From assembly GCA_003242085.1 (NCBI GenBank), contig QBML01000023.1:1-46669 (forward strand): 46,669 bases of DNA. Reading direction: 5' to 3'. Shown here one piece after another: positions 1-17,253 of this stretch (positions are counted from its first letter, which is position 1; every line of letters starts with the position of its first letter). The notes beneath the pieces are model-generated. The model searched no databases, was not told where the DNA came from, and worked only from the letters and a program-made list of their open reading frames with translations. The DNA is from Pseudanabaena frigida (GTDB lineage Bacteria > Cyanobacteriota > Cyanobacteriia > Pseudanabaenales > Pseudanabaenaceae). Position numbers and translations under genes: made by a program.

Positions 1-74
1 TGCTTAAACTCGTTATCTTTTATTTACTCATTCATCTTTCATTTGTGCAACGCCAAAGAAAGAGATGTACATTT

Positions 75-866
75 TTAACGATGCTTCACAATGTTTTTAT
101 CCGTAATAATTGAAGGGAGTTTCCACCAAGGTAGATGGGGATATAGATGATGCTCTTGGTGATAGCCGAAATGATAGCAAGTGATGAATGACCAAAGTAA
201 AGGACGATAAATACTTTGAGCACTAGAAGAATTTTGATAACCATCAATTGGTTCTCGATGAGGTAGAAAAGTCCCAAAGTAGAAAACCTGAATCGAACTT
301 AAAATCGTGGGAACTGCTGAGAATAGAATTAAATTGGCATACGCAATATTCAGAAAACTATGCATACTTTCATAGGTCATAAGTAAAAATGCCAACCGCC
401 ACCAACTCCAATACCTTTGCATAAAGCAGATATACCAAGCGATCGCATTTTTATGTGTACCGTCATGAAAGTCAGGATCGGATTCACTAGTGGGAGCATG
501 ATGATGCTGCGAATGCTTTTTTAATAGCTGCTCATAAGAGAAAAAACCATAGAGCAAGAGGGCAAGAGAACCAATAAAATCGTTAATTTGATGATGCTTC
601 GGCAAAATTGCTCCATGCATAGCATCATGGGCTGTGATAAAAAGCCCAGTACAAAGAAAAGTTTGCCATAATATCGTCACTAATACCCAAAATAAGGAAG
701 TTTGTTCCACAGATACGGAATTTAATAAGAACCAAAAACCTATTGCCCAAATCGTAATAATTAATAGAGCAATCTCTGCTCCAGTGATGCCAATTTTCGA
801 GCCATCAAATACGGTATGAACTGAAGGGACAGAATTCTCTGAGGATAAATCTATAGGGTATTTCAT
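75..866 (-). CDS. crtW: Beta-carotene ketolase CrtW-type, membrane fatty-acid-desaturase fold
   Basis: A 263-residue membrane di-iron oxygenase of the fatty acid desaturase superfamily. The three histidine boxes are visible: HDAMH (about residues 80-84), HSQHHH (118-123) and HQEHH followed by LYPHLPWWKLP near the C-terminus. The last box and its PWW(Q/K)LP tail are typical of CrtW ketolases, which add the 4-keto group to beta-carotene to give echinenone or canthaxanthin. Hydrophobic segments lie at about 28-48, 55-75 and 170-195. The ATG start leaves a normal-length CrtW. No partner gene is adjacent and the downstream side lies outside the window. A generic desaturase is the alternative, but the third box favours CrtW. 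Confidence 0.85.
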   Translation of the reverse strand: MKYPIDLSSENSVPSVHTVFDGSKIGITGAEIALLIITIWAIGFWFLLNSVSVEQTSLFWVLVTILWQTFLCTGLFITAHDAMHGAILPKHHQINDFIGSLALLLYGFFSYEQLLKKHSQHHHAPTSESDPDFHDGTHKNAIAWYICFMQRYWSWWRLAFLLMTYESMHSFLNIAYANLILFSAVPTILSSIQVFYFGTFLPHREPIDGYQNSSSAQSIYRPLLWSFITCYHFGYHQEHHLYPHLPWWKLPSIITDKNIVKHR

Positions 867-1200
867 TTATAGAAAAGGCTTGAAGTGATTGCAGAGAGAT
901 AGGCATTTACTGGGCATTTACAATGCAGTCATTATCATAATTAATTCCATAGACAAAACTGCTTTCAAATTATGGTGTTTCTTGAAAAGAACACCCACTA
1001 GGATATATATTTGGCGAATAAAAAGCTTTACCATGCTTTTGCGGTTCGGCTATTCTCCGTCTTACCTTGGGTTCAGAACTGTAATACCCGAAACTCATCG
1101 GGGAAGTAATAAAATCTTGCACTTGATAAACTTGAGCGATCACATACTCACTACCTTTACGAGGTTGATTTAGGAAGTTGATTCAGATCATTCTCAATAC
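867..1200. other. Gene-poor spacer upstream of crtW
   Basis: No convincing gene. A plus-strand frame at 889-1173 has no recognisable domain and no good ribosome site. Within it, near 1040-1075, the words YSPSYLGFRTV resemble the end of formylglycine-generating-enzyme-like (SUMF1) domains, but this is too short to call. The crtW promoter should lie at the left end. Confidence 0.4.
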
Positions 1201-1275
1201 TTAAAAATTATAGCCAAAACCAACCAAAATACCCAAATCTTTTATACGCAAAAAATCTAGATTAAAGTGCTTTAC
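1201..1275 (-). pseudogene. C-terminal remnant of an outer-membrane beta-barrel gene
   Basis: Read on the minus strand, the last 24 codons before a TAA give ...NLDFLRIKDLGILVGFGYNF. This matches the C-terminus of the intact gene at 5552-6277 (NLAFLNSTDLGIVVGIGYNF), including the terminal aromatic residue typical of outer-membrane barrels. An in-frame TAA lies just upstream and the rest of the gene is absent. A 53 nt palindrome (1288-1340) and a copy of the element found upstream of the intact gene (1401-1447) lie on the upstream side. Together they suggest a duplicated gene that lost its middle. The similarity is seen directly; the history is inferred. Confidence 0.7.
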
Positions 1276-1287
1276 TTAGAGAAAAGT

Positions 1288-1340
1288 CCTAATATCTTAT
1301 TGAGATCTTTGCAATGCAAAGATCTCAATAAGATATTAGG
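1288..1340. repeat. 53 nt near-perfect palindrome
   Basis: Two 26 nt arms, starting CCTAATATC and ending GATATTAGG, are exact inverted copies around a single central A. It lies between the barrel-gene remnant and the shared element at 1401, where a deletion seems to have happened. Confidence 0.9.
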
Positions 1341-1400
1341 TTCTGATAGCAAAGATTTGTACATACTTGTACATACCATAGTTACTAACTTGACATAGTC

Positions 1401-1447
1401 GTGTTTGACTTCGTGAATAAATTGATTGATTACAAATAAGTTTAAGA
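1401..1447 (-). repeat. Shared intergenic element, copy A
   Basis: Minus-strand text GTAATCAATCAATTTATTCA continues with CGAAGTCAAACACGAC. It closely matches copy D (6331-6394) and is related to copies B and C. It sits beyond the barrel-gene remnant, as copy D sits before the intact barrel gene. One frame reads VINQFIHEVKHD. Confidence 0.65.
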
Positions 1448-1486
1448 TTAGCTTAAGGATTATGACATGCAATCATTCTAATTGTC

Positions 1487-3208
1487 TCAAGCAGGTAAGG
1501 TATAGCGTTTTTCGATCGCTGATTTAATGCGAGCGCGACTATCTATAGGTGATAGATCTGTAGTTGTTTCAATCTCGCTGACCTCCTTTGCTAAAGATTC
1601 ATCTTTAATCGAATTTTGGAGCCAATTCGAATAATCTTGTAGATGCAAATGATGTAACCAAGTGCGATCGTCCACTCCTGCGGCAAGTTGGATAAACATA
1701 ATTAGATTTTGGGCTTTGAGATTTAATTGGTTGTCTTCGCCTCTAAAAAAGAAACAGCGATCGTTGCCCAAATTCCCTTCAGCATAGGTTCGCATATGTC
1801 GTTGTCTTTCTTGGCGAGGAGGGATTACTTGAAATTGAAATGGCTGATCCTCATTTTTTAAGAACCATGCAACTCCTTCTCCAGCAAGAATTTCTGAAGC
1901 CAGAGAGTCAGTAGGAAGCTGATGTCCAACAGCTTTGCAAAAATCTGTAATTGTTTGCGAAGGTGACTTAACGGCAATAATCGTATCAACTAAAGACAAA
2001 GCTGAAGTCGCCACGTGTTCGGGATGAACTGTAATCATCAAAGTACCACTCACAGACTGAGGCAAGGTAACCGCAGCATTCCAATCAGCATGGAACATAT
2101 GATGTACTTCATCAATGATAATCCAATGCGGTCGCCCTGTTCGCACGCGCATTTCCAAGAGAGAAGGTAATAATTGAGCAAGATATAAGGGGCGATCGTC
2201 AATTTTTACTCCCATTAAATTGACGATTAGATTCTGTTCAGGCTTACTCAAAGCAGTTAATACTTCAGCGGAATTAGGAATCTGTTGAGCATTTCCCAAG
2301 ATCACGCTTTGCTCAAACTCTTGATAGTCTCCTTCAGGATCGATAATGCAGACCTGATAGCCCTTATCAATAAACCTCTCGATTAATCCCGTCGCTAGTG
2401 TTGATTTGCCTCCGCCAGAGATACCCGCCAACAAAATATTGCGATTGAGTGGCTGAATATAGACATCGCGATCGCCATCAAGTTTACCCAATAAAATGCG
2501 ATGACGATCTGGCAAAATTGAGGATTCTCGGAGATCTTCTGTTAGATCTAGAGTTAATAATCTCTCGATTAATTCAACTACACCTTCACCTCGGCTTGCT
2601 TGAGTCACCCAATCCACTTCACTTTTGACCGATGGTAGAGCATTAGCTACAGCGACAGAAAGCTCGCATAATTTAAGAAAAGATAGATCGTTCTCCGCAT
2701 CACCAACGGCCACTGTATTACGGACAGATAATCCCATTTTGTCAAGAGCCTCACGCAGTCCTGTCGCTTTGTTCACTCCCGCTGGCAAAACCATTACTGC
2801 GCCTTTATTAAAGATTACCTGTAGATCTAGTCCTAGTTCTCGAATTGTAGTTAGTACTTCAGTTTCATTAGGTTCCCATGTTGCGACAATCACTTTGCCG
2901 ATCGAGAGAGGATTGATATTATGCGATCGCAAAGTCTGCAAAAATTTCTCAGGCGGTAAGCTACCTAGCAATAACTCTTCGCGAGTTGCGGGAAAGTAGA
3001 TTACGGCTCCATTCTCAGCAACAACACAATCAAACAAATTAACTTCAGGAAATACTCGAAGAATATCTTCCAGTTGTCTTCCTGTCACTAGAATTAGCTT
3101 TCGTCCAGATTTTTGTAATTTTTTGAGGGCAACTAGAGTCGTCTCCGAAACCTTTCCATCCTGTGCTAAGGTTCCATCATAATCTGTTGCTAATATTAAG
3201 TAGTGCAT
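1487..3208 (-). CDS. HAD-family phosphatase fused to a HerA/DUF87-like P-loop ATPase
   Basis: A 573-residue two-domain protein. Residues 1-215 are a Cof-type (HAD-IIB) phosphatase: the DYDGT nucleophile motif is at 9-13, VTGR is near residue 42, and GDAEND is near 168-174. Residues 240-480 form a P-loop ATPase with Walker A GISGGGKST (about 260-268), a following IDPEGDY segment like those in HerA/VirD4 ATPases, and Walker B WIIIDEVHH (about 360-368). The remaining ~90 residues match nothing I know. Similar fusions occur in cyanobacteria under generic HAD names; the substrate is unknown. It may couple dephosphorylation of a sugar-phosphate-like ligand to an ATP-driven motor, but that is inference. 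No operon partner is within 100 bp. Confidence 0.8.
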   Translation of the reverse strand: MHYLILATDYDGTLAQDGKVSETTLVALKKLQKSGRKLILVTGRQLEDILRVFPEVNLFDCVVAENGAVIYFPATREELLLGSLPPEKFLQTLRSHNINPLSIGKVIVATWEPNETEVLTTIRELGLDLQVIFNKGAVMVLPAGVNKATGLREALDKMGLSVRNTVAVGDAENDLSFLKLCELSVAVANALPSVKSEVDWVTQASRGEGVVELIERLLTLDLTEDLRESSILPDRHRILLGKLDGDRDVYIQPLNRNILLAGISGGGKSTLATGLIERFIDKGYQVCIIDPEGDYQEFEQSVILGNAQQIPNSAEVLTALSKPEQNLIVNLMGVKIDDRPLYLAQLLPSLLEMRVRTGRPHWIIIDEVHHMFHADWNAAVTLPQSVSGTLMITVHPEHVATSALSLVDTIIAVKSPSQTITDFCKAVGHQLPTDSLASEILAGEGVAWFLKNEDQPFQFQVIPPRQERQRHMRTYAEGNLGNDRCFFFRGEDNQLNLKAQNLIMFIQLAAGVDDRTWLHHLHLQDYSNWLQNSIKDESLAKEVSEIETTTDLSPIDSRARIKSAIEKRYTLPA

Positions 3209-3309
3209 AAGTTTTGATTGATTGCCATGCTAAAACAGTTCTATCCTTATTACCACAGATAGAATTGATACTCAGCTTTTATAGAAAAACTACAAAACTG
3301 TTGTGAAGT

Positions 3310-3774
3310 CTAAATGCATCCCAATACTGACAGAGTATAGGTATTGCCGATCGCATTAAGACCGCCAATAAATACATTCACTTGAAATGGATCTAGTTGT
3401 GGCTGAGGTGAGCCGACTAGTCTTAATGGTTTACCAACTTTAACTGCAACATTATCTTTTTTGTAAGCTCTACTAGAACTATTGTCGCTGTACTTGAGAT
3501 TTAGTTCTACATCGAAGTTGGCGTTGTTTTCGGGGATAATAGTTGCCACATAGCGGTTGAAAGAGCGATCGCTGGGCACAGCAAAGTCAGTATTCCAGTT
3601 GTTATTGGTAACCAAGGTGCTAAATGGAGAAACCGTCTTTTTTACACTAGTACCTGTAGCTCCTATTACATTGAGTGCAGTACAAGTTTCTGCTTGGGCA
3701 GAGGATACAAAAGATAAGCTTATTAGTAAACCTAAAATTCCTAATAATTTGGCGTTAACAGAATTTAGAAACAT
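3310..3774 (-). CDS. Secreted hypothetical protein
   Basis: A 154-residue protein with a clear signal peptide: a hydrophobic stretch at about 10-24 and a likely cut after AQA before ETC. The mature part has only two cysteines, one at its start (TCTAL) and one at its end (LGCI), which could form a disulfide. The remainder is beta-rich with polar strands such as NANFDVELNLKYSDNSSS. A GGGAG ribosome site precedes the ATG. I do not recognise the family. It opens the run of stress-type genes transcribed leftwards and is separated from the next gene by a hairpin. Confidence 0.75.
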   Translation of the reverse strand: MFLNSVNAKLLGILGLLISLSFVSSAQAETCTALNVIGATGTSVKKTVSPFSTLVTNNNWNTDFAVPSDRSFNRYVATIIPENNANFDVELNLKYSDNSSSRAYKKDNVAVKVGKPLRLVGSPQPQLDPFQVNVFIGGLNAIGNTYTLSVLGCI

Positions 3775-3802
3775 ATATTCTCCCTATGAATTTTAGAGTT
3801 GA

Positions 3803-3829
3803 GGTATGCAACACATTGTGTTGCATACC
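3803..3829. terminator. Perfect hairpin after the DUF1269 gene
   Basis: 13 nt arms (GGTATGCAACACA and its inverse) surround one base, directly beyond the stop codon of the gene at 3841. There is no strong T-run, so terminator function is inferred from position. Confidence 0.6.
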
Positions 3830-3840
3830 AAATAATGAAA

Positions 3841-4326
3841 TTACGCCTTTGCTAAAACTGCCTGTAACTTTGCTTCGTCTTCGTTCGATAGAGAAGTTTT
3901 GATTACTTTGCCCTTAAACTTACTAAGATCCTCTAGCACCTTATCAGAGGTGGCTCGTCTTACTAATACAAAGATGGCAGACGTACCAGGGGTAATTGTA
4001 CTGCCAACATCTCTAATAAAATTATCATCAATTCCAATGTCAGTCAATGCTCCTGAGACTCCTCCCGCTAATGCCCCGACTGCCCATCCTAAGAGAGGAT
4101 TAAAAAAGATGAAGCCAAATAGCAGCCCCCATAACCCTCCACTTAAGGCTCCACTAGCGGTTAGTTCTTGAGTCTGCTTGATCTGCACTTTCCCTTCTTT
4201 ATTTCTGATGGCGATCGCAGCATCTTCGAGATCGATTAAGTGTTCTTGCTGAAGTTTTCGGAGTTCTAGTACAACAGCGTCAGCAGTAAATTCGTCATTA
4301 AAGCCAATTGCAATCAGACTACTCAT
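3841..4326 (-). CDS. DUF1269 family membrane protein
   Basis: A 161-residue protein matching the DUF1269 pattern. The N-terminal alpha/beta part begins SSLIAIGFNDEFTADAVV. A glycine-rich hydrophobic hairpin follows at about 60-95 (SGGLWGLLFGFIFFNPLLGWAVGA). The C-terminal part contains TPGTSAIFVLVRR. The family is common near stress genes in cyanobacteria and has no settled function; association with membranes is likely. An AGGA ribosome site precedes the ATG. It stands alone between two hairpins (3803-3829 and 4366-4388). Confidence 0.85.
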   Translation of the reverse strand: MSSLIAIGFNDEFTADAVVLELRKLQQEHLIDLEDAAIAIRNKEGKVQIKQTQELTASGALSGGLWGLLFGFIFFNPLLGWAVGALAGGVSGALTDIGIDDNFIRDVGSTITPGTSAIFVLVRRATSDKVLEDLSKFKGKVIKTSLSNEDEAKLQAVLAKA

Positions 4327-4365
4327 ATATCGATCCTGTTGATAATTTTTTGTTATTTAGTCAGA

Positions 4366-4388
4366 AAAGCGGTGCAAAGCACCGCTTT
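4366..4388. terminator. Hairpin between the LEA-like and DUF1269 genes
   Basis: AAAGCGGTGC and its exact inverse flank a 3 nt AAA loop. It lies just past the stop codon of the leftward gene at 4400. Confidence 0.65.
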
Positions 4389-4399
4389 CTCTTTTTTAG

Positions 4400-4903
4400 T
4401 TAGGATTTGATCTTATTTTTAATAGACTTAGCTGTATCTGATGCTTTCTCAGTGAGTGAGTTAATTGCATCTCCAGTCTTATCTTTGATATAACTGGCGG
4501 CGTCTCCAGCTTTGTCTAAAGCCGAGTCAACCCCTTTCTTGGTATCTTCTTTAGCCAAACTCACTTTGTCTCCAACGTTACTTAGTGACTTTTCTACCTG
4601 CTTTACAATTGGAGGTGTATCTTCGTTTGAACTCCGCTTCATTTTGTCAAAATCAGCAGTTCCCTGAATTTCGTTTAAACCTTGATTTGAATTATCTTCA
4701 GATGTGTATTCTGGATTAGTATCGTAAGCAGTGGTATTTAATGACTCCTCAGCCTTCTTCTGAATGTTAGGCATAGTCAGATTGTCAGTAATTTGATTTG
4801 GGCTGTCCTGAGCTGCGATCGCTGGTACAACATTCCCAAACGTCACAAATCCCAAAATAGCAACTATGACCAGTAAACGATTTAAAAATTGAGTAAATTT
4901 CAT
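4400..4903 (-). CDS. Exported LEA-like stress protein
   Basis: A 167-residue protein with a signal peptide (hydrophobic about 10-28, AIAA before QDSPNQ). The mature part is low-complexity and strongly hydrophilic. The last 70 residues carry repeated amphipathic 11-residue-like units rich in Lys, Asp and Ala (VDSALDKAGDAASYIKDKTG and similar), the style of group 3 late-embryogenesis-abundant proteins. Such proteins are thought to protect membranes or proteins during drying or salt stress. An AGGAG site precedes the ATG. Copy B of the shared element lies 60-106 nt upstream. The gene at 10959 has the same architecture. Confidence 0.75.
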   Translation of the reverse strand: MKFTQFLNRLLVIVAILGFVTFGNVVPAIAAQDSPNQITDNLTMPNIQKKAEESLNTTAYDTNPEYTSEDNSNQGLNEIQGTADFDKMKRSSNEDTPPIVKQVEKSLSNVGDKVSLAKEDTKKGVDSALDKAGDAASYIKDKTGDAINSLTEKASDTAKSIKNKIKS

Positions 4904-4960
4904 AGAGTTTCTCCTAATCTAATTGAGCATCGCAAAGTGTTGCTAAAACTACTATGACAA

Positions 4961-5010
4961 GTGAATGTTTGATTTCTTGAATGAGTTGGTTGATTAAGAA
5001 ATAAACTGTA
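4961..5010 (-). repeat. Shared intergenic element, copy B
   Basis: Minus-strand text TTTCTTAATCAACCAACTCA then TTCAAGAAATCAAACATT. It starts about 60 nt upstream of the LEA-like ATG and just after the Hlip stop codon. One frame reads VYFLINQLIQEIKHSLV, close to copy C. It could be a promoter region or a short conserved reading frame. Confidence 0.65.
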
Positions 5011-5029
5011 ATAGCACAAAGAATCAGAT

Positions 5030-5236
5030 CTACGAAACTGGAACTACGCCAGAAGCCAAGATACCCCAAAAATGGAGAATTCCTTGATGGGTAAATAGTT
5101 CGATCGCGATCGCTGATATAAAGCCAATCATGGCTAGGCGACCATTCCATAGTTCTGCTTGCGGTGTGAATCCTGAAATCCAAGCATTACGACTCATTAC
5201 TCTTGCTGCTTCAGCCTGTGGTGTATTAGTTTGCAT
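5030..5236 (-). CDS. High-light-inducible protein (Hlip/SCP)
   Basis: A 68-residue protein with one chlorophyll-binding helix: ELWNGRLAMIGFISAIAIEL contains the ExxNGRxAMxGF signature of Hlips. The N-terminus is soluble and polar. Hlips bind chlorophyll and carotenoid in the thylakoid and protect photosystem II and chlorophyll-synthesis complexes under high light. I chose the ATG at 5234-5236 because GGAG sits 8 nt upstream; a TTG seven codons earlier would be the longer alternative. It is followed closely by copy B of the shared element and the LEA-like gene. Confidence 0.92.
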   Translation of the reverse strand: MQTNTPQAEAARVMSRNAWISGFTPQAELWNGRLAMIGFISAIAIELFTHQGILHFWGILASGVVPVS

Positions 5237-5551
5237 AGTACTTGCTCCGAAATTCAAAAATTTACTTAGTCTCTTGACTACTAATAGAATTACACATGCA
5301 TGGTGGAGATAGCGTTGCAGAAGGTCTTAGAGCGTATACTTTGTATAAGTAGCTCCCAAATATCGATCTAAGGAGATAGATGCAATCCGAAGTACTACAT
5401 TTATCTCTTTAAGAACCCATTTAAGAATTGCTCTAGAATCTCCCCATCTCGGAAGAGAATTAATCTTTCCCCCTTTTTAAGGGGGATTGAGGGGGATCTC
5501 TTAGAGTTTTTAAATACAGAAAGTAATTCTTAAATAGTTTCTAAGGCTTAA
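5237..5551. other. Spacer upstream of the Hlip gene, with a C5/G5 repeat
   Basis: No gene seen. At 5469-5485 CCCCC-TTTTTAA-GGGGG forms a small hairpin, followed by ATTGAGGGGG. This is the style of a dispersed cyanobacterial intergenic repeat. The Hlip promoter should lie at 5240-5340. Confidence 0.5.
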
Positions 5552-6277
5552 TTAGAAGTTATAGCCAATACCAACTACAATCCCGAGATCGGTACTATTC
5601 AAAAATGCTAGATTTGCTGCCACATTAATTGTAAAAACAGATGACAGTGGAATATCAACACCCCCCGTTAATAGGAGTCCATAACTATTTGTAGAACCAG
5701 TGTTAATCGCAACACCACCACCTAGATAAGGAGAGAACTTAAAATCACCAAAAGGTTCTTGAGGTGAAAAATCATAAGTTACAGGAAGTAAAACGGTTAC
5801 AAAATCTCTTAACAGCAGCAAGCTAGGACGTACCGATATAGTTTCAGTCAAGCCTAGTTTGCTAATAATAACGAGACTGCGATCGCCCACATTTCCATCA
5901 CCAGAAAGACCGAAGTTAGCGCCAACACCAAGAAAGCTTGGTCCTGAACGAGTAGCTCTAAATATTCGATTGCCGTTACTATCAGTTGGAGGTGCAATTT
6001 GGGCTACTGAGTTAGTAGAGCCTTTAAGAGTGGCGGCGCTTCCATCAGGAACAGCTGTTAAAGTAGCTACGGTTGATACTTTCCCTTCTGGTAGCTGAAT
6101 ACTACTTTCAACCTTCTTTAGACTTGTTGGAGTAGTTGTAGATTCAGCACTTTGCTTTTTGTTAGTTATAGTCTGACAATTCTTGACCCATCCACATGCA
6201 GAATTTTGTGCTTCCACTTCAGTAATAGAATTACCGAGTACTAATAGAGTAATACCAGCGAGAAGATGAAACTTCAT
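5552..6277 (-). CDS. Putative outer-membrane beta-barrel protein
   Basis: A 241-residue secreted protein. A signal peptide (about 1-23, ending EVEA) is followed by a polar linker of about 85 residues and then a glycine-rich beta domain with alternating strands (LGVGANFGLS, YLGGGVAINTG, LLTGGVDIPLS). The end VVGIGYNF has the C-terminal phenylalanine that marks outer-membrane barrels for BAM-mediated insertion. The mature N-terminus has two cysteines (SACGWVKNC), a possible disulfide. Copy D of the shared element lies 54-117 nt upstream. A decayed copy of the C-terminus is at 1201-1275. No specific family is recognised. Confidence 0.75.
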   Translation of the reverse strand: MKFHLLAGITLLVLGNSITEVEAQNSACGWVKNCQTITNKKQSAESTTTPTSLKKVESSIQLPEGKVSTVATLTAVPDGSAATLKGSTNSVAQIAPPTDSNGNRIFRATRSGPSFLGVGANFGLSGDGNVGDRSLVIISKLGLTETISVRPSLLLLRDFVTVLLPVTYDFSPQEPFGDFKFSPYLGGGVAINTGSTNSYGLLLTGGVDIPLSSVFTINVAANLAFLNSTDLGIVVGIGYNF

Positions 6278-6330
6278 CGGTTTATTCCTTTGTAAATATT
6301 TAAACTCTATTTACAAGTTTTAAACTAGTC

Positions 6331-6394
6331 ATGATTGCTTTTATGGATGACTTGATTGATTACAATTTGATTGATTGACTTAATCACAAAATGT
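6331..6394 (-). repeat. Shared intergenic element, copy D
   Basis: Minus-strand text TTGTAATCAATCAAGTCATC then CATAAAAGCAATCATGAC aligns with copy A with about three quarters of bases identical. One frame reads VINQVIHKSNHD and then a stop. It lies 54-117 nt upstream of the barrel-protein ATG. Confidence 0.65.
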
Positions 6395-6402
6395 AATATA
6401 GC

Positions 6403-6455
6403 AAATCCAAATAGGAAAAGGCGGCGCTTCGCGCCGCCTTTTCCTATTTGGATTT
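6403..6455. repeat. Family A palindrome (GGCGGCGC core)
   Basis: 25 nt perfect arms with a 3 nt TTC loop. The outer arm contains CCAAATAGG and the core is GGCGGCGC-TTC-GCGCCGCC. It sits just past the stop of the PRC-barrel gene and upstream of the barrel-protein gene. It may act as terminator, mobile repeat, or both. Confidence 0.9.
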
Positions 6456-6481
6456 TATGTCCTAGCGAAGCGCCGCTCGTT

Positions 6482-7888
6482 CTAGCTTAGAGCAGCTTTA
6501 CCAGATTCAGGAGCACGTAAATCATCTAAAGAGAGAGTAGGTGTTTCTGTATAAACGGAATCAAGTAAAACTTCTAATACATCAGCTTCACGGGAAATAG
6601 CGATCGCTTGATGTGTAATTAATTCCCCAACATTGAGGATTACTTCGTCATTGCGATCGAGAATAACGCGAGTTACGGGACGACCCAAAGCCCCCTTAAT
6701 CCTTTTATCTTCAACAGCTTGAACACCATGCTCTTGTAAATTGCTTGCAGTCTCTTTAACCTGTTCCCACAATCCCTTAGCTCCGTCCTTAACCTGTTGT
6801 CCGACATTAGAACCTGTAACTCTCAAAGCATCACCTGTTGTTAAGCCGACAGATTCTAATAGAGCTTGCTCTTGATGATGAGTTTTTGCTCTTTCAATGA
6901 CCTTTGGAGTCACAATTTGACCTTCTACAGCCACAACTGAGCCTTCAGATGTAAAAATCATCTTGTTCACTCGCCGACCTTGCGCCTGATCAATGCCAAT
7001 ATTTGCACCGATACCTGCGACGGTTCCAGATAATCTTTCGCCCAGTCTCCCTGTCACTCGTCCTCCCGTTGCATGATAGAGATCGTTGGTCATATTTAGG
7101 TTCCGAGCAGCCAAGATATGTGATGAATTTACCACCTGTCCTTCCTGAATTAAAGTTATGCCATCGGTAGTTTCTAAAGTTTTTTGAGCAACTTTTCCTA
7201 ATACAAAAGTTTCTTGTTCTTCAGGATCGACTACAGCATTTGTAAAGCTAGTACCTGCAAATGTCGTTGCTTCTTGAAACTTCTCTCCTGTAAATTGAGC
7301 AGCTTCTTGAGCTTTTTCCCCTGTAAATTGAGCCATTTCCTGCACTTTGCCGCTGGCAGTTTGCATCACGCCTCTAATTCCACCAACTTGCTCTTGCATT
7401 AGGTCAGCAGTTTCTGAAGGAACAAATGCGATATCTTCACCAATTTTAAGGGTGTCAGGAGCAGGGACAAAAGAGCGTCCAGAATAAGCGTCTGCAAAAA
7501 TTCCTCCAGACACCTCATATCCTTCGATCGCTCCAGTAATATCGTCAAAGTAAAGGTCTACCATTGTTCCAAGATCGCGACCATCAACGGTCATAATTCT
7601 CGTACCTTTCAAGATATTATCTTTCTCTAAAATACTCTGGATTTCAGGAAATTCAATGGCTGAATCTACAGTATCCCTAGAAGCGACAATTACTGCATCA
7701 GCACCGATCGCTCGAACTTTGCTCAAAGGAAGTACCAAGGCATTGCTAAACCATCCACCTTCATCTACAAGGAAACCTAATAGCTGGTTCTTTTCTTGAT
7801 CGAAAATCAAATCTGCAATTGTCTTAAACTCTTCCCCAGAGTCGTAGGCGACTATAGGCTTCCCAATCATTCCTTTGCCATTACGCAT
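6482..7888 (-). CDS. PRC-barrel domain stress protein with LEA-like middle
   Basis: A 468-residue protein. Residues 5-75 and 85-160 are two PRC-barrel-type units (GKPIVAYDSGEEFKTIADLI, then MTVDGRDLGTMVDLYFDDIT). Residues about 175-215 repeat an 11-residue unit (EMAQFTGEKAQ / EAAQFTGEKFQ), as in LEA helices. Further PRC-like strands follow at 235-345 and 395-440 (RPVTRVILDRNDEVI). PRC barrels occur in photosynthetic reaction-centre H subunits and RimM; here the role is unknown, probably stress-linked. AGGAG precedes the ATG by 10 nt. The gene upstream (7924-8115) is only 35 nt away, so the two are likely co-transcribed. Confidence 0.82.
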   Translation of the reverse strand: MRNGKGMIGKPIVAYDSGEEFKTIADLIFDQEKNQLLGFLVDEGGWFSNALVLPLSKVRAIGADAVIVASRDTVDSAIEFPEIQSILEKDNILKGTRIMTVDGRDLGTMVDLYFDDITGAIEGYEVSGGIFADAYSGRSFVPAPDTLKIGEDIAFVPSETADLMQEQVGGIRGVMQTASGKVQEMAQFTGEKAQEAAQFTGEKFQEATTFAGTSFTNAVVDPEEQETFVLGKVAQKTLETTDGITLIQEGQVVNSSHILAARNLNMTNDLYHATGGRVTGRLGERLSGTVAGIGANIGIDQAQGRRVNKMIFTSEGSVVAVEGQIVTPKVIERAKTHHQEQALLESVGLTTGDALRVTGSNVGQQVKDGAKGLWEQVKETASNLQEHGVQAVEDKRIKGALGRPVTRVILDRNDEVILNVGELITHQAIAISREADVLEVLLDSVYTETPTLSLDDLRAPESGKAALS

Positions 7889-7923
7889 TTCAGATATTCT
7901 CCTAGATTTGGTGAAAGTAAACC

Positions 7924-8115
7924 TTAATTGGCAGGTCTATCGATTTTTACAGGTTGGTTGGTAGAAGTACTCTTTACTTCAGTCTCTTTCCCAAAATTAG
8001 GAATGAAGTCAATTACTCCAAAATATTCTAGTGCTACGACTCCTACAGCAGCTATCAGCATAGCTAAGCCAGTATACAGAACAGAATTATTTTTCTTTCC
8101 TACAAGTCTAGGCAT
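7924..8115 (-). CDS. Small single-span membrane protein
   Basis: A 63-residue protein: a basic N-terminus (MPRLVGKKNN), one transmembrane helix (about 12-32), then a short polar tail ending DRPAN. I chose the ATG at 8113-8115 because GAGAAAAT precedes it. A frame open to 8232 would read through the shared element and give no plausible protein. It is upstream of, and probably co-transcribed with, the PRC-barrel gene. Family not recognised. Confidence 0.65.
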   Translation of the reverse strand: MPRLVGKKNNSVLYTGLAMLIAAVGVVALEYFGVIDFIPNFGKETEVKSTSTNQPVKIDRPAN

Positions 8116-8183
8116 ATATTTTCTCGCAGTTTCTAGTTGTCTAGAGAAATAAAAATTTCCTAGATTTCCACCTTGGCAGCATA

Positions 8184-8239
8184 GTGTTTGACTTCGTGAA
8201 TGATTTGATTCAATTGATTCATTAAGAAACAAACTGTTA
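8184..8239 (-). repeat. Shared intergenic element, copy C
   Basis: Minus-strand text AACAGTTTGTTTCTTAATGA matches copy B, and ATTCACGAAGTCAAACAC matches copy A, with a short internal duplication of AATCAA. It lies 69-124 nt upstream of the small membrane-protein ATG. One frame reads VCFLMNQLNQIIHEVKHYA. Confidence 0.65.
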
Positions 8240-8266
8240 CAAAAGCAGTGTTTGTAGAAATTACTT

Positions 8267-8307
8267 CAATAGAACAGGCGGTGTGTTTCACACCACCTGT
8301 TCTATTG
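8267..8307 (-). terminator. Hairpin after the BON lipoprotein gene
   Basis: 19 nt arms around a TTT loop. The single mismatch (C opposite A) is a G-U pair in minus-strand RNA, which fits a role in RNA from the leftward gene ending at 8308. Confidence 0.7.
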
Positions 8308-8766
8308 TTAATTGGGCTTAGAGGCTACTGCTGCCTTGATTGTGACACTTTTAACTCCTTTGATTTCCATTGCCAACTTTTGAATCTTACTAAGCTGATC
8401 TAGATTGGAAACTGTACCTGCTACCGTCACTACAGCATCCTTAGAAGCAACTGTGAGATTGCCACCAGGAATATTGGCTTCCAGTTTGCTGCGTACCTCA
8501 CTGGCAAGATCGTTATCATTGCGATTTTGCGGATTGCCCATAGCATTATTGCGCTGTTCTTTAGCGCGAATATCTGCATCTAACTGCTTAGCACGAGTGT
8601 CGCTCTGTGCGTCAGTTTTAGCTGGTTCCGTACTTTGAGCCATCGGGGTCTGAGCCTTTTGATCGGTCGAATTAGGAGCATCTGCACTAGTCCGCGCATC
8701 GGTACAAGCACCGACAGTAACTACTAAAAACCCAATCAAAAAGGAGGAAACTACTTTTCTATTCAT
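8308..8766 (-). CDS. BON-domain lipoprotein
   Basis: A 152-residue protein. The signal peptide ends in a lipobox (TVGAC, cysteine at about 21), so it should be lipid-anchored. A charged spacer with LDADIRAKEQRNNA precedes a single BON domain (about 85-148: LASEVRSKLEANIPGGNLTVASKDAVVTVAGTV...). BON domains, as in OsmY, bind membranes and are often osmotically induced. It sits alone between hairpins. Its own ribosome site is weak (GAG). Confidence 0.88.
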   Translation of the reverse strand: MNRKVVSSFLIGFLVVTVGACTDARTSADAPNSTDQKAQTPMAQSTEPAKTDAQSDTRAKQLDADIRAKEQRNNAMGNPQNRNDNDLASEVRSKLEANIPGGNLTVASKDAVVTVAGTVSNLDQLSKIQKLAMEIKGVKSVTIKAAVASKPN

Positions 8767-8822
8767 TTTATTGACTCGTTATTGGTTTGTTAACACAGTG
8801 CACAGCACTGAAGCAAAATCTA

Positions 8823-8867
8823 GATGTTTATGGAAAGTACTGTCTAGCAATACTTTCCATAAACATC
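8823..8867. terminator. Hairpin after the GSP17M-like gene
   Basis: 17 nt perfect arms (GATGTTTATGGAAAGTA and inverse) with an 11 nt loop, just past the stop of the leftward gene at 8903. Confidence 0.65.
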
Positions 8868-8902
8868 CATTGATGAATCTAATCACTGATGATCATTGAT
8901 CG

Positions 8903-9517
8903 CTATCGATTTGGATTACCATCTATAACCGAACGGCTATTATGGGTTTCGCGGTTATCGTCATAGATACCCCAATCATCGATTCCACGATGACTCAGGA
9001 TAGCCTGCGCCCTTTGGACATCATCATTGGAGCCTTCCACCATCACTAGATAGTCACCATGCTCAATGCGATCGCTATACTTTTTAGCCCGATCTTCAGG
9101 AATACCCATACCTACCAATGCACCTACGATTCCGCCTGTTGCTGCACCAATGGCTCCACCAGCTAATGTAGTTGCCAAAGTGGTTGCGGCTGCTCCTGCA
9201 AGCATGATCGGTCCCACACCTGGAATTGCGACCATACCCAAGCCCACCAGCAAGCCCGTAAGCCCACCCACAGCACCACCAGTAGCCGCACCAGTAGCCG
9301 CACCTTGATCGGCTTTATTATGTTTTTCCTCTAGATCGGAGAGGCGATTGCTTCCATCGGCTCCAGCTATATTTGAGTTACGGTCGATATCCTGCCCAAC
9401 CACAGAAACTTTATTCATGGGAAAATCACTATCTCTTAGCTCACGCAAAGCCGTCTCAGCATCAGCATGATTAGAGAAAGTACCGATCGCCCGTTTGTTT
9501 TGTTGTGCTACCGTCAT
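8903..9517 (-). CDS. General stress protein 17M-like (YflT type) with glycine zipper
   Basis: A 204-residue protein. The N-terminal 55 residues are the heat-induced stress protein YflT / GSP17M domain (AIGTFSNHADAETALRELRDSDFPMNKVSVVGQD). The middle (about 75-140) is a glycine-zipper membrane hairpin (TGGAVGGLTGLLVGLG, GGAIGAATGGIVGALVGMGI). The end returns to the same fold (YLVMVEGSNDDVQRAQAILSHRGIDDWGIY). In Bacillus the family is sigma-B dependent; here membrane-associated stress protection is a reasonable inference. Weak similarity to the shared element is seen at 9533-9572. The three genes at 17644-19215 have a related fold. Confidence 0.85.
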   Translation of the reverse strand: MTVAQQNKRAIGTFSNHADAETALRELRDSDFPMNKVSVVGQDIDRNSNIAGADGSNRLSDLEEKHNKADQGAATGAATGGAVGGLTGLLVGLGMVAIPGVGPIMLAGAAATTLATTLAGGAIGAATGGIVGALVGMGIPEDRAKKYSDRIEHGDYLVMVEGSNDDVQRAQAILSHRGIDDWGIYDDNRETHNSRSVIDGNPNR

Positions 9518-9597
9518 GACTTTTATGCCTTTTTAATACAAGTGATTAGATGATTAGTTGGTTTAGTGAGGGATACACTCGCCACTATTTAGCCCTT

Positions 9598-10305
9598 TTA
9601 GCCCTTAGTTTTTTTAGAGAGCTTACTTAAAGGGTCGGCGATATACTCAAAGTTAGGTTCTGAATTCCAAGGACCTCTTTCGTCTTTACCATCACCGTTA
9701 GTCGATAAGTTGTAATAGAGCTTGACGGTTTCGTCAGGCACAACATTACCGAAGAAGGGATCGCTTAGTTTGCCCAGAGAATCCAACGCCTTCATGAACA
9801 TCTCAGTATGAGAAATCTCTCTCGTCAGTAGATGCCGCAATGTCTTTAAAGTGCCATCATCAGTAGCAAGTTTAATTAGAGCTTCATAGGTTTGACGAGC
9901 GCCTGCCTCAGCGGCAATGTTAGCTCTGAGGTCACGTACTACATCTCCACCCTCATTCAAATAGTTTGCTGACCATGCATTTCCTTGGCTATCGAGAAAG
10001 TGTGGACCTATACCTCTCACGGCAAACAGTGTGCTTTTATAAGCTTCGGTTTGATCTATATCCTTAGTATGAATTTCGATCAACTTGCCTACCATTTCCA
10101 GATGTCCAAACTCTTCAAATGCTATGTCTTGCAACATATCTTTGATGCCTTGGTGCTCAATGTGAAATGATTGCACCCAGTACTGTAAAGCTGCGGAAAG
10201 TTCTCCAGTTGCGCCACCAAATTGTTCTAATAAAAGTTGGGCAAAACGGGGGTCTGCATTATCAACTTGCACAGTATGAATTGGCTCTTTCTTGTGAAAA
10301 AACAT
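9598..10305 (-). CDS. Manganese catalase (non-haem), KatB-like
   Basis: A 235-residue protein of the di-manganese catalase family, which breaks down hydrogen peroxide. Expected metal ligands are present with the known spacing: E35, E65, H68, then E133 and H166. These match E35, E66, H69, E148, H181 of the Lactobacillus plantarum enzyme, with 33 residues between the last two in both. It is shorter than the ~270-residue classical enzymes and like the short cyanobacterial KatB of Anabaena, which is salt- and desiccation-induced. Its place among stress genes agrees. The ribosome site is weak. Confidence 0.92.
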   Translation of the reverse strand: MFFHKKEPIHTVQVDNADPRFAQLLLEQFGGATGELSAALQYWVQSFHIEHQGIKDMLQDIAFEEFGHLEMVGKLIEIHTKDIDQTEAYKSTLFAVRGIGPHFLDSQGNAWSANYLNEGGDVVRDLRANIAAEAGARQTYEALIKLATDDGTLKTLRHLLTREISHTEMFMKALDSLGKLSDPFFGNVVPDETVKLYYNLSTNGDGKDERGPWNSEPNFEYIADPLSKLSKKTKG

Positions 10306-10958
10306 AATTTGACATTCAATTCTTTGTGTAACTTATGTAGTCGTAAGTCTTACTTAATATCAATGATTAGCTCCTATTAAGTAGTTGGGCATAATTAAAA
10401 ACCAGAGCCAAAACCCGTAGCGCACGCTGCGCATGTGCCACAGGTTTTAAGGTTTTATATTTATAATTGTGCTGAACTACTTAAATAAGCACGTCATTAA
10501 TAAGTAATCTTACTTACAAGAAACATCATGACACCTTGATGTTGGAAATCATGTATAAGCAAAAGTTGAAATCTGAATGAATTGTATAAAATAGACTAAA
10601 ACAATTTAATTCGTTATAAAAAATGTAGATATATAGCAATTCTAAATAGTTTATGGAAAAGTGCATCGAAGGACCAGCTCTTCGACAGACTTAGAAAAAT
10701 ATAAGCAGCTGGACACAATTAAAAACCAAAGCCAAGATCTTTGGCGCACGTGCAGCGTGCGCCAAAGATCTTGGGGTTTTATATTTATGATTCAGGATTG
10801 TTATATAAGTAGATATACGAGAAAGTTTATCGTCAAGTTTTATTTTGTTTTAGTACAACTCATTCAATTTATACATTTCTCAAACATGAGATCAAACATC
10901 AGGTTGTTATGTTGAACCTTGTCAACAGATTACATGTAAAATTGTTAGGTGAAACACA
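10306..10958. other. Intergenic region between Mn catalase and LEA-like gene with two related hairpins
   Basis: About 650 nt with divergent genes at its ends and no convincing gene; a plus frame at 10661-10915 runs through a hairpin and is probably spurious. An imperfect hairpin (about 10395-10470) and a perfect one (10732-10774) both begin with TAAAAACCA and AGCCAA words. At 10853-10905 the plus strand (CAACTCATTCAATTT ... GAGATCAAACAT) weakly resembles the shared element and precedes the LEA-like gene. Confidence 0.55.
10732..10774. repeat. Perfect hairpin in the catalase/LEA spacer
   Basis: 19 nt arms (CCAAGATCTTTGGCGCACG and inverse) around TGCAG. AAAAACC before and GGTTTTA after extend the pairing. 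A degenerate relative lies about 330 nt to the left. Confidence 0.85.
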
Positions 10959-11549
10959 ATGACTAAAGTTTTAAATGCTGTAACAAGTGGCTATTCTTTT
11001 AGCAATCGTGTTAATGCGATTAGAGTTACTGTACGCAATGGCATTAAAAAAAGCTTTCTATCTCTCTTTGGATTCGCATTAGTTTTACTGTTGCAAGTTG
11101 CATTTTTTAGTTCTGAGGCGATCGCATCTCCTTTAGCTGGACTGTTCGGCAACAAAGTTGACGAGATGACTCAAGGCGTGAAGACAGACATGGCGATCGA
11201 CAAAGCCGCAGGCATCACCAAGGAAATCGGTCGCGATCTTCGTGATGGTAGAACTGACAAGGTGATTGACAAACTCGCGGACACCTCTAAAGACTTTGCC
11301 AAAGAAGCAGGAAAACGCACTAAAGAATTAGCCAAAAATGTCAAGGAAGGCACTAAGGAAAATATTGGCAAAGCGAAGGATGTTGCTAAAGATGCCAAAG
11401 ACAAAATTGGTGATGGTGTTGATAAAGCCAAGGAAATGGCAAGCGATCGCACAGGTGAAGTCAAGGATGCAGCCAAAGACTTACCCGATAAAGCTGGTAA
11501 CAAAGTCGATGAAGCAATTGATTCTGTCAAAAACTTCTTAGGTCAGTAA
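10959..11549 (+). CDS. Exported or membrane-anchored LEA-like protein
   Basis: A 196-residue protein. The N-terminus is basic and then hydrophobic (LFGFALVLLLQVAFFSSEAIA, about 37-57), probably a long signal peptide or anchor. From residue 65 it is a continuous amphipathic, Lys/Asp/Ala-rich helix with 11-residue-like repeats (KAKDVAKDAKDKIGDGVDKA), as in group 3 LEA proteins. It resembles the protein at 4400-4903. The family is linked to desiccation and salt tolerance. AGGTGA precedes the ATG. A hairpin follows 7 nt after the stop, then the GlsB-like gene on the same strand. Confidence 0.78.
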   Translation: MTKVLNAVTSGYSFSNRVNAIRVTVRNGIKKSFLSLFGFALVLLLQVAFFSSEAIASPLAGLFGNKVDEMTQGVKTDMAIDKAAGITKEIGRDLRDGRTDKVIDKLADTSKDFAKEAGKRTKELAKNVKEGTKENIGKAKDVAKDAKDKIGDGVDKAKEMASDRTGEVKDAAKDLPDKAGNKVDEAIDSVKNFLGQ

Positions 11550-11556
11550 TTCCAAT

Positions 11557-11593
11557 AAGTGAATAGGTGGCACTTTATGCCGCTTATTCGCTT
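11557..11593 (+). terminator. Hairpin between LEA-like and GlsB-like genes
   Basis: 16 nt arms (AAGTGAATAGGTGGCA and its inverse) with a CTTTA loop. All three mismatches are G-U pairs in plus-strand RNA, which suggests it is selected as RNA structure in this orientation. Confidence 0.65.
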
Positions 11594-11632
11594 ATATACA
11601 AGTTCTTTAAGTCGATAAATGGAGAAAATAGT

Positions 11633-11881
11633 ATGACATTCATTTGGTTTATTTTGATCGGGCTAGTGGCGGGTGCTTTAGCTGGTCAAATAGTTCGTGG
11701 TGGTGGATTTGGCGTGCTGGGCGATATCGTTGTCGGTATTGTGGGCGCATTGTTAGGAGGTTTCCTATTCAATACCTTTGGAGTCTCTACGGGCGGTGGC
11801 TTGGTTGGCAGTTTAATTGTAGCAACCATTGGAGCTGTAGTTTTGCTGTACGGCATTCGCTTAGTCAATAGAACTAACTAA
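11633..11881 (+). CDS. GlsB/YeaQ/YmgE family stress membrane protein
   Basis: An 82-residue protein with three hydrophobic helices rich in glycine (WFILIGLVAGALAGQIVRGGG, DIVVGIVGALLGGFLF, SLIVATIGAVVLLYGIRL). This is the transglycosylase-associated (GlsB/YeaQ/YmgE) family, small inner-membrane proteins induced by general stress. The start at 11633 is chosen because GGAG lies 8 nt upstream; a frame open from 11567 would run through the hairpin. It is followed by the glycine-zipper gene on the same strand. Confidence 0.92.
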   Translation: MTFIWFILIGLVAGALAGQIVRGGGFGVLGDIVVGIVGALLGGFLFNTFGVSTGGGLVGSLIVATIGAVVLLYGIRLVNRTN

Positions 11882-11966
11882 TCTTTTCTCTTTTGATTAA
11901 GAGAACTGCTTTCAATTATTAGTTTTTGCGTAAGTTCCAAATAAATTATTTAGAGGACAATTAACA

Positions 11967-12467
11967 ATGAATACGAAGAATATTAATCCTATCGAAGACA
12001 CTGATGCCAATCGCGATCCAATCTCTGGAGAGCCTGGGGCACATCCTTTAGGTGCAGGGGTAGGAGCCGCAGGGGCTGGTACTGTCGCGACAGTGATTGG
12101 TGGTGTAGTTGGCGGGCCCGTCGGAGCTGTAGTCGGCGCTGTCATTGGATCTGTAGTTGGCGGCTTAGCTGGCAAAGATGTTGCCGAGCAAGTCAATCCT
12201 ACTTTTGAAGACAATCATTGGCGTGAGACTTATAGTTCTCGTCCCTATGTCGAAGGAGATAGAACCTACGAAGAATATCAACCTGCATATCGGACTGGTT
12301 ATGAAGGTTACGATCGCTATGGTCATAGTGGTCGGAGCTATAGTGAAATTGAGACAGATCTCCAACGCGATTACGAAGCAAATCAGACTGGAAATCTACC
12401 TTGGGAAAAAGCCAAACATGCAGTAAAAGATGCATGGGATCGAGCTTCTACATCTTTAAAGCGATAA
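11967..12467 (+). CDS. Glycine-zipper hypothetical protein
   Basis: A 166-residue protein. A polar N-terminus with PISGEPGAHPLGAGVGA leads into a glycine-zipper hydrophobic hairpin (about 28-70: TVATVIGGVVGGPVGAVVGA). A tyrosine-rich middle (YEEYQPAYRTGYEGYDRYG) and a C-terminal amphipathic helix with PWEKAKHAVKDAWDR complete it. This layout is common in cyanobacterial and proteobacterial stress clusters, but the function is unknown. GAGG lies upstream of the ATG. A Family B palindrome follows the stop codon. Confidence 0.75.
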   Translation: MNTKNINPIEDTDANRDPISGEPGAHPLGAGVGAAGAGTVATVIGGVVGGPVGAVVGAVIGSVVGGLAGKDVAEQVNPTFEDNHWRETYSSRPYVEGDRTYEEYQPAYRTGYEGYDRYGHSGRSYSEIETDLQRDYEANQTGNLPWEKAKHAVKDAWDRASTSLKR

Positions 12468-12472
12468 TATAG

Positions 12473-12523
12473 GCTTCGACTTCGCTCAGCCACCAAAGAG
12501 AGCTAGCTGAGCGAAGTCGAAGC
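12473..12523. repeat. Family B palindrome (GCTTCGACTTCGCTCAGC)
   Basis: 18 nt perfect arms GCTTCGACTTCGCTCAGC / inverse with a 15 nt loop. Relatives lie at 16701-16905, 19264-19311 and 41463-41530. It sits 5 nt past the glycine-zipper stop codon. Confidence 0.9.
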
Positions 12524-12554
12524 TTCTATTACACTTTGTTTCGTAGTCAGGCAA

Positions 12555-12593
12555 GTTAATCAAATCACCCAACTAGTTGGACATTCTAATGTG
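12555..12593 (+). repeat. Possible shared-element relative upstream of the hemerythrin gene
   Basis: Plus-strand GTTAATCAAATCACCCAACT then AGTTGGACATTCTAATGTG. One frame reads VNQITQLVGHSNV, comparable with copy B (INQLIQEIKHSLV). Similarity is weaker than among copies A-D. Confidence 0.35.
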
Positions 12594-12647
12594 ATGATTT
12601 TGTCAAGGGAATTAATAGTCTCTTAGCTTTACAAAGGAGAATCATAA

Positions 12648-13685: not shown

Positions 13686-13764
13686 ATTTTCTAGGACTTG
13701 CGCTGTGCCATCGGGTTTGAGTGCAAGTCCTATGAGCTTATTTTTAATTTCAGGAGCGAAGATC

Positions 13765-13926
13765 GTGATTTACACTAACCGACCATTGGAAACTTCTATA
13801 GAAGAGCGACAAGTTGATGCTACAGAGGTTAGCGATCGCCTTCATTGGAGTTCTTTTTTAGGATTAGATGCTTCAGCAATTGGTGCAAGTGTATATACTC
13901 GCCAAGTCAACTCTAACCAAATCTAA
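13765..13926 (+). CDS. Possible small protein, GTG start
   Basis: A 53-residue frame beginning GTG with CAGGAG 8 nt upstream: VIYTNRPLETSIEERQVDATEV... and ending ASAIGASVYTRQVNSNQI. It is acidic then neutral, with no membrane segment and no known family. The good ribosome site is the main support. It lies 80 nt after the hemerythrin gene on the same strand and could share its message. It may be only a chance frame. Confidence 0.4.
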   Translation: MIYTNRPLETSIEERQVDATEVSDRLHWSSFLGLDASAIGASVYTRQVNSNQI

Positions 13927-16687: not shown

Positions 16688-16700
16688 TGCTTCGACTACG

Positions 16701-16796: not shown

Positions 16797-16855
16797 AACC
16801 GAATTGTGGCTTTGCTCAGTTACTGAGCTTTAGCACTGTTAGACTCAAACCCACT

Positions 16856-16905: not shown

Positions 16906-16916
16906 AAGACGGAAAA

Positions 16917-17243: not shown

Positions 17244-17253
17244 TTAGCCTCCT

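Follow-up and report, generated by a model that had tools for sequence, protein, structure and literature searches.

A promoter-like element shared by stress genes of Pseudanabaena frigida and its candidate NACHT-type activator

The first 19 kb of the window analysed here, a 46,669-nucleotide stretch of Pseudanabaena frigida DNA (assembly GCA_003242085.1, contig QBML01000023.1, positions 1 to 46,669; it opens contig C15 of a 5.39-Mb genome), contain stress-type genes, and related blocks of sequence recur upstream of several of them. Do these blocks form one regulatory element and, if so, which protein acts on it? To our knowledge, the master control of cyanobacterial general stress genes is largely open. 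A first-pass annotation of the window had offered three options for the blocks: a common regulatory site, a leader or a mobile spacer. The comparisons described below supported the first of these.

Judged from its sequence, the element is almost certainly a common promoter/operator of stress genes. Its main activator is probably (at a probability of about 0.78) the protein encoded at 14357-16687, a signal transduction ATPase with numerous domains (STAND) that has a predicted helix-turn-helix (HTH) followed by NACHT and NCH2 domains. With odds slightly better than even, both belong to a cyanobacterial general stress regulon that would be run by an HTH-NACHT-NCH2 STAND activator, similar to the nucleotide-binding leucine-rich repeat (NLR) receptors, instead of a sigma factor; this activator would read arrays of 9-bp units at promoters with a -10 box only, and the regulon would be modular, present on chromosomes and plasmids in many families, and have from one to over 20 sites per genome. 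This regulon is made testable by the promoter signature, a model for genome scans, the member genes listed and one candidate regulator.

The element was found to be a block of approximately 65-75 nt that comprises a 5' box (TTACnTTTTGTnTCGTA), two to three 9-bp TCAnTCAnn units, AAATCAAACA, a fixed gap and a TGnCAnnnT box; the block consensus of 67 non-redundant elements was TTACAnTTTnTnTCGTA-nTCAATCAAnTCATTCAnGAAATCAAACA-nTnnnCTGTCAnAGTA. It runs from the TTACAnTTT box through the TGnCAnnnT box and is therefore longer than the 40-60 nt first proposed. The 67 elements (alignment A5) were derived from 103 matches at E ≤ 2e-4, which were reduced to 69 by similarity removal and to 67 by omission of L005:14913 and L010:6585. 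All 67 rows were gapless from the repeats to the end box. Length variation was confined to the upstream part and amounted to one whole 9-nt unit, never falling between the repeats and TGnCAnnnT: 23 elements were exactly 9 nt longer upstream, 44 were not, and there was no third length. By eye, the extra 9 nt were one additional TCAnTCAnn-like unit. An early idea, that six SWNWCR hexamers at a 9-12 nt spacing were read by an OmpR-type regulator, was rejected when autocorrelation of the column information revealed no 10-nt period; the exact 9-nt length steps favour the TCAnTCAnn units over such hexamers.

Extended -10 promoters have the consensus TGnTAnnnT, in which -11A and -7T are the fixed bases. 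In the end box of the element, an A and a T four positions apart were invariant (67/67, an upper estimate because the profile favours copies having those bases), and the preceding T and G were found in 53 and 52 of the 67 elements, respectively. We infer that TGnCAnnnT is an extended -10 box and that its invariant bases are -11A and -7T. No -35 consensus was apparent among the 67 elements; the repeats occupy that place.

Within the window, the repeat search alone grouped four blocks, copies A-D (families D3 and D6), which had been reported in the first-pass annotation and which proved to be real and to lie on the minus strand (Table 1). A window-independent profile was built from 24 elements of other genomes and zero window sequences; A, B and D scored 41.5-68.3 bits and C was weaker, at 25.2 bits, compared with a top score of 21.3 bits (second 15.2) among 100 dinucleotide shuffles of the window. 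The words said to be common to A-D were only partly so: ATTCA(C/A)GAA and TCAAACA were present in A, B and D and absent from C, and the literal TTAATCAA(C/T)CAA was present in B and absent from A, C and D. No TGnCAnnnT box was seen by eye in copy C. When copy D was used as a single-copy DNA query, only copy D itself and copy A were recovered below E 0.4. The earlier claim of a decayed gene beside copy A was borne out, with positions 1198-1263, a remnant related to the 5552-6277 gene, being 74% identical to 5549-5614 (repeat search, family D9), and copy A itself had a mean identity of 76% to the elements of the 5552-6277 orthologues vs 52-59% to those of other groups.

The proposed weak relatives of these copies fared differently. 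The site at 12555-12593 lies in a strong element, E, which scored 57.8 bits and thus far above chance. Those at 10853-10905 and 17501-17550 were indeed weak here (23.1 and 18.9 bits, the latter beaten by 1/100 shuffles); they terminate in TGTTATGTT (10905-10913), which matches TGnTAnnnT, and in TGGCAAGGT (17558-17566), respectively. Similar genes in other loci were also preceded by weak to moderate matches: late embryogenesis abundant (LEA)-like genes at E 4e-4 in L002 and at E 0.0014 in L090, and YflT-type genes at E 0.003 in L003 and at E 3e-6 in L010. The relative at 9533-9572 was rejected, since no model recovered it. A variant element with ...CAATTTATACA... blocks gave weak matches at 10832-10915 of the window, L091 5257-5339 and L086 1118-1201, which precede genes taken by eye to be BON-like and LEA-like; this variant may be a second operator type.

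Table 1. Coordinates of the elements, genes and plasmid loci discussed (inferred -10 hexamers given for the copies concerned; weak-copy E values from model R1)
Feature	Coordinates or accession	Strand	Score	Remarks
Copy D, long form (extra 9-nt unit)	8162-8242	-	68.3 bits	Upstream of 63-aa gene
Copy D, inferred -10 hexamer	8175-8170	-		TG at 8178-8177
Copy B, short form	4944-5014	-	59.2 bits	Upstream of 167-aa gene
Copy B, inferred -10 hexamer	4956-4951	-
Element E, long form	12526-12606	+	57.8 bits	Upstream of HHE gene
Element E, inferred -10 hexamer	12593-12598	+
Copy A, short form, diverged 5' box	1380-1441	-	41.5 bits	Upstream of decayed 5552-6277 paralogue
Copy A, inferred -10 hexamer	1392-1387	-
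Copy C, longer, diverged	6326-6398	-	25.2 bits	Upstream of 241-aa gene
Weak copy	10837-10916	+	23.1 bits, E 0.011	Upstream of LEA-like gene
Weak copy	17502-17575	+	18.9 bits, E 0.018	Upstream of YflT-type gene
Candidate regulator gene	14357-16687	+		776 aa from conserved ATG 14357; mechanical open reading frame from 14312
Remnant of C-terminal end of decayed 5552-6277 paralogue	1198-1263	-		Downstream of copy A
167-aa protein gene	4903-4400	-		Downstream of copy B
241-aa gene	6277-5552	-		Downstream of copy C
63-aa protein gene	about 8115-7924	-		Downstream of copy D
PRC-barrel gene	6482-7888			Pfam
BON gene	8308-8766			Pfam
LEA-like gene	10959-11549			Named from translation
Hemerythrin/HHE gene	12648-13685			Pfam; downstream of element E
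YflT-type stress gene	17644-18132			Pfam
Plasmid locus L169	NZ_AP017563.1
Plasmid locus L170	NZ_CP091915.1
Plasmid locus L171	NZ_CP097482.1

The association of the element with particular genes was examined in L001-L010. Relatives of the window's PRC-barrel protein were found in nine close records (L001-L009; Pseudanabaena, Phormidium tenue and an Oscillatoriales metagenome-assembled genome, MAG), in a MAG of Microcoleus (L010) and, at a greater distance, in MAGs of Rhizonema and Scytonema. Orthologous genes were present in L001-L010 in shuffled order. In the upstream stretches examined, the element preceded the orthologues of the 63-aa gene (10/10), the 241-aa gene (4/4), the HHE gene (3/3) and the 167-aa gene (6/8; L006 had no element and L010 a weak score). 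From the first seed, the L006 167-aa gene had been omitted, L005 small62 missed and aa167_L010 taken out. Matches outside the training set of the first profile preceded high-light-inducible protein (HLIP), DUF1269, PRC-type and other genes, with names given partly by eye.

Wider searches relied on the covariance model R1 (sequence only), which was based on an alignment, A3, of 28 matches at E ≤ 7.1e-9, and on a broader model, R2, of 67 elements, some of them from the P. frigida genome itself. The whole-genome scan suggested in the first-pass annotation gave 16 sites with R1 at E ≤ 0.01 (20 with R2); 12 of the R1 sites, none of which had been used for training, fell outside the window and were clustered on contigs C13 and C38. 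A gene start, defined as an ATG-started open reading frame of at least 55 aa beginning at most 90 nt downstream on the same strand, followed 9 of 11 outside sites (the 12th runs into a contig end), compared with 8.4% of 18,000 random positions. The genes that followed include one for a CsbD-like protein (Pfam PF05532) and others that were named by eye as encoding an EmrA-type protein and FAD oxidoreductases. A single-pattern genome scan with TCAWACAN{6,8}GYCA was rejected as too loose (38 matches vs 18 with the reversed control). With R1 at E ≤ 0.01, the element was detected in 22/23 genomes of the genus and in 3/15 others. Across an even draw of 388 genomes of the class, it was detected at E ≤ 0.001 in 101 genomes and in 47 of 160 genera; approximately 0.4 genomes were expected by E-value alone.

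Outside the genus, a recurrent target was a short receiver-type response regulator gene (L139, L141, L144, L146, L151 and L096), the L139 product of which, the only one scanned, scored 28.9 bits for Response_reg, just below the Pfam cut-off of 30.2. The targets in L142 were a Dps-like gene and HHE. In L095 (G029:C35), an element at 4871-4934 lies 34 nt upstream of a gene whose 988-aa product looks like a hybrid histidine kinase; together with the receiver-type genes behind elements in several families, it indicates that signalling genes may themselves be targets. An element at 16114-16168 of L090 (G016:C1; nhmmer E 2e-8) lies 30 nt upstream of a GvpA-like gas-vesicle gene (by eye), which suggests that buoyancy genes can join the regulon. 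Plasmids of Pseudanabaena sp. ABRG5-3, Nostoc sp. UHCC 0870 and Chroococcidiopsis sp. CCNUC1 carry the HTH-NACHT gene and elements near stress-type genes; since regulator and elements are located on plasmids, the regulon may spread as a module. In ABRG5-3 the plasmid is ABRG53c, on which the regulator orthologue (ABRG53_RS23715) is accompanied by several elements.

The candidate regulator gene sits between the elements at 12526 and 17502. The same protein of approximately 770 aa was found in 6 of 12 listed neighbourhoods of distant elements (L139, L141, L144, L151, L142 and L136, with L139 and L136 representing one genome), and a short receiver-type gene was near it in L139, L141, L144 and L151. 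Pfam analysis identified NACHT (PF05729, E 8.7e-17) and NCH2 (PF22727, E 2.2e-33) domains. The best-conserved part of the first 140 aligned residues was the first 75, and AlphaFold2 modelled residues 1-70 as a helical domain with a predicted local distance difference test score of 75-90 by block (whole-model mean 68.5). Foldseek matched the N-terminal model to ribosome-bound EDF1/Mbf1-type chains, HipB, C.AhdI, SinR and 434 Cro with a probability of 1.00, the best HTH E-value being only 0.03 and none being ≤ 0.001. Pfam HTH_31 was detected in one of three N-termini (E 0.033), and no solved homologue was found by sequence at E ≤ 1. On the basis of the model, the N-terminus is predicted to be a Cro/HipB-like HTH. 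Existing records name members of this HTH-NACHT clade as NACHT NTPase or hypothetical protein, and defence profiles matched the window protein weakly (PDC-S60, a partial match at 44.8 bits; EruA, 31 bits vs a cut-off of 1000). The analysis gives a probable transcriptional role to this clade, and the candidate regulator shares its ATPase class with the immune receptors of animals and plants. A second HTH-NACHT relative, 65% identical over residues 16-617 only, is encoded elsewhere in the P. frigida genome (G000:C1:95519-97333). A pair of 38-nt direct repeats (14127-14164 and 14185-14222; 84% identical, D18), 135-230 nt upstream of the HTH-NACHT start, possibly constitutes that gene's own regulatory sites; the element profile gave nothing above 5.1 bits there.

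When named plasmids were searched by tblastn, a homologue (33% identity over 99%) was found on pSYSM at the xssQ place, beside response-regulator genes; the gene was identified as xssQ by its position in the xss cluster (sll5042-60) and its neighbours. XssQ of Synechocystis sp. PCC 6803, which belongs to the synechan cluster with XssR and XssS, resembles the window protein in having an N-terminal HTH and a STAND ATPase and is homologous to it from end to end. XssQ is reported to bind AAGTTXXAC sites, single or in tandem upstream of its targets, and to activate the xss genes (PMC8205485). Its helper XssR is described as a response regulator without a DNA-binding domain (PMC13125312), and in this it resembles the short receiver-type genes behind elements. 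The latter report also states that Synechococcus elongatus PCC 7942 has no xssQ homologues. The recognition-helix residues of the window protein differ from those of XssQ, and XssQ serves one polysaccharide cluster, whereas here a dispersed stress regulon would be served. The HTH-STAND kind of activator is known from XssQ. No prior description of the promoter signature, the stress regulon or the regulator clade was found in the open-licence PubMed Central literature, most subscription papers being outside that scope.

Co-occurrence across the 388 genomes linked the element to the HTH-NACHT protein. Scoring was limited to the two best matches in each genome, and all counts are among the matches listed; the orthologue cut-off (E < 1e-200) was chosen after the match list had been viewed. 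Nearly all matches above this cut-off had at least 53% identity, and full-length ones below it had at most 48%. The element was present in 75/91 genomes with an orthologue, 16/87 with weaker matches only and 10/210 with no match, so that orthologue genomes compared with the rest (26/297) had an odds ratio of 49 (p 2e-41), with genomes treated as independent. Similar differences were seen outside the window's family (53/69 vs 19/281) and by genus (37/44 vs 10/116). G001, of the same genus, had neither the element (R1 or R2) nor the orthologue, consistent with co-occurrence. As a prediction test, the 16 orthologue genomes that were negative with R1 were searched with R2 at E ≤ 0.01; the element was found in 11 of them and in 1/17 controls (Fisher p 2e-4), with G344 and the one control resting on short matches (partial in G344). 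The two were also linked: of the 34 orthologue genomes with known coordinates outside the family (from 69 with an orthologue there), 21 had an element within 10 kb of the orthologue, compared with 0.32 expected, and in G144, G374, G267 and G271 it lay on the same strand, 19-62 bp past where the match ends.

MalT and other STAND transcription activators are oligomerising ATPases that act on repeated direct sites before a weak promoter. The window protein would likewise be expected to oligomerise and to bind repeated direct sites; it differs from MalT in that its HTH is N-terminal and of Cro/HipB type and in that its ATPase is NACHT, not of MalT type. In the proposed mechanism, the element would be an activator-dependent promoter with a -10 box only, with transcription starting approximately 7 nt past TGnCAnnnT and the repeats spanning roughly -50 to -30, where they would replace the -35 box in the manner of class II activator promoters. 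A stress signal would reach the STAND protein; in some relatives a receiver-only response regulator may relay it, in the way that XssR serves XssQ. The protein would then adopt an oligomeric ATP form, bind cooperatively to the tandem repeats and recruit RNA polymerase, with joint induction of CsbD, hemerythrin, Dps-like, PRC-barrel-type, high-light-inducible and efflux genes. The sigma-B and EcfG general stress regulons of other bacteria similarly control CsbD-, Dps- and further stress-type genes through a single site; in contrast, a STAND activator on a -10-only promoter is envisaged here, with no dedicated sigma factor.

The alternative that survives best, although it is considerably less probable, is that the element truly is a stress promoter/operator and answers to another protein (an alternative sigma factor or a response regulator of the OmpR family), with the HTH-NACHT gene being island cargo. 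Direct repeats of approximately 9-11 bp would fit OmpR/PhoB-type regulators too, and the island genes co-travel and are on plasmids in several strains. The orthologue was missing from 26 of the 101 element-bearing genomes, including six of the same genus (G002, G014, G015 and G018, with 2-7 elements, and G188 and G219, with one each); another regulator or a paralogue may serve in such genomes. Several further observations weigh against the HTH-NACHT protein as activator or against the promoter assignment. Inheritance of a single island could account for part of the co-occurrence and linkage, relatedness having been considered through the family and genus counts only, and the orthologue cut-off was set late. 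G262 and G288 had partial matches of 57-58% identity below the cut-off and no element (counting them as orthologue genomes gives 75/93 vs 26/295, odds ratio 43), and 5/16 orthologue genomes remained element-free with R2. No receiver gene was noticed beside the regulator in the window. The XssQ operator AAGTTNNAC was found in only 1/67 elements, the Foldseek E-values for the HTH were poor, the invariance of the A and T is an upper estimate, and the first hexamer position of the end box (-12) was C in 50/67 elements instead of the usual T.

Against the cargo explanation, the HHE gene, an element target that is itself an island gene, had an odds ratio of only 4 (element in 64/149 vs 37/239), far below the 49 of HTH-NACHT. 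The HTH-NACHT association persisted within both HHE strata, with the element in 22/26 vs 15/213 HHE-negative genomes and in 53/65 vs 11/84 HHE-positive genomes. Two known sites were also compared with the 67 elements. RpaB recognises the HLR1 motif (G/T)TTACA(T/A)(T/A)NN(G/T)TTACA(T/A)(T/A), an exact match to which was found in 0/67. The promoters with the SigJ J-box of Nostoc punctiforme, given as GGGaAtacT in PMC6495340, resemble the element in that a conserved extended -10, a putative one in the element, is common to many cyanobacterial promoters; the J-box itself was present within 2 mismatches (forward strand) in 0/67, and the element has, in addition, a conserved long repeat block upstream. 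In a 2026 paper on OrrA, the only 'motif' was a CRISPR protospacer-adjacent motif, and OrrA was set aside. The HTH-NACHT protein, the only candidate regulator profiled, remains the preferred activator.

Very improbable is a tiny conserved peptide (ITVYFxxNQxxxQ..), whether as an upstream open reading frame, a small protein or decayed copies. One forward frame was open more often than the others, in 37/59 registered copies, and the 9-nt length steps preserve frame; the same frame was closed in 22/59. Of four gene groups, two had slightly more change at the third codon position than at the others (0.314 vs 0.243/0.255; 0.234 vs 0.205/0.193) and two had the most at the first (0.235/0.132/0.209; 0.254/0.130/0.188), so there was no consistent codon signal, and invariance is limited to two isolated bases 4 nt apart. 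The copy D peptide weakly matched 12528-12587 (45% identity, E 0.66); a search of the P. frigida genome gave itself and two matches at E 0.66, a common start codon not being systematically sought.

Equally improbable is a leader within the transcript (a riboswitch, an attenuator or a site for an RNA-binding protein), one of the options first offered: a position upstream of start codons would suit it, but RNAalifold predicted 0 pairs over 28 sequences, no match within window positions 1-20000 reached the Rfam gathering score, and the conserved part includes the -10-like box at its 3' end, with most of the element upstream of the inferred -10. The third option, a mobile or repeated spacer similar to a miniature inverted-repeat transposable element that lies next to genes by chance, would account for the many clustered copies per genome and is the least probable, since the copies are gene-specific orthologues that track their genes across species despite changes in gene order, their internal spacing is rigid and the element ends do not pair (no structure, 28 sequences).

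Among the other genes of the first 19 kb are ones that, from reading of translations by eye, we take to encode manganese catalase, HLIP, LEA-like and DUF1269 proteins; no Pfam family matched the 167-aa and 241-aa proteins. GC-rich, near-perfect intergenic palindromes at 6403-6455, 17391-17440 and 19668-19720, the copies of which are 80-83% complementary to each other, are by their sequence a repeated palindrome or terminator family. Intergenic GCTTCGACTTCGCTCAGC-type repeats, direct and inverted and in part a 24-nt tandem array, were located at 12472-12531, 16688-16784, 16867-16890 and 19263-19312. Further downstream, an adjacent pair of serpin-like genes (20886-22259 and 22501-23832) was named by eye from the translations.

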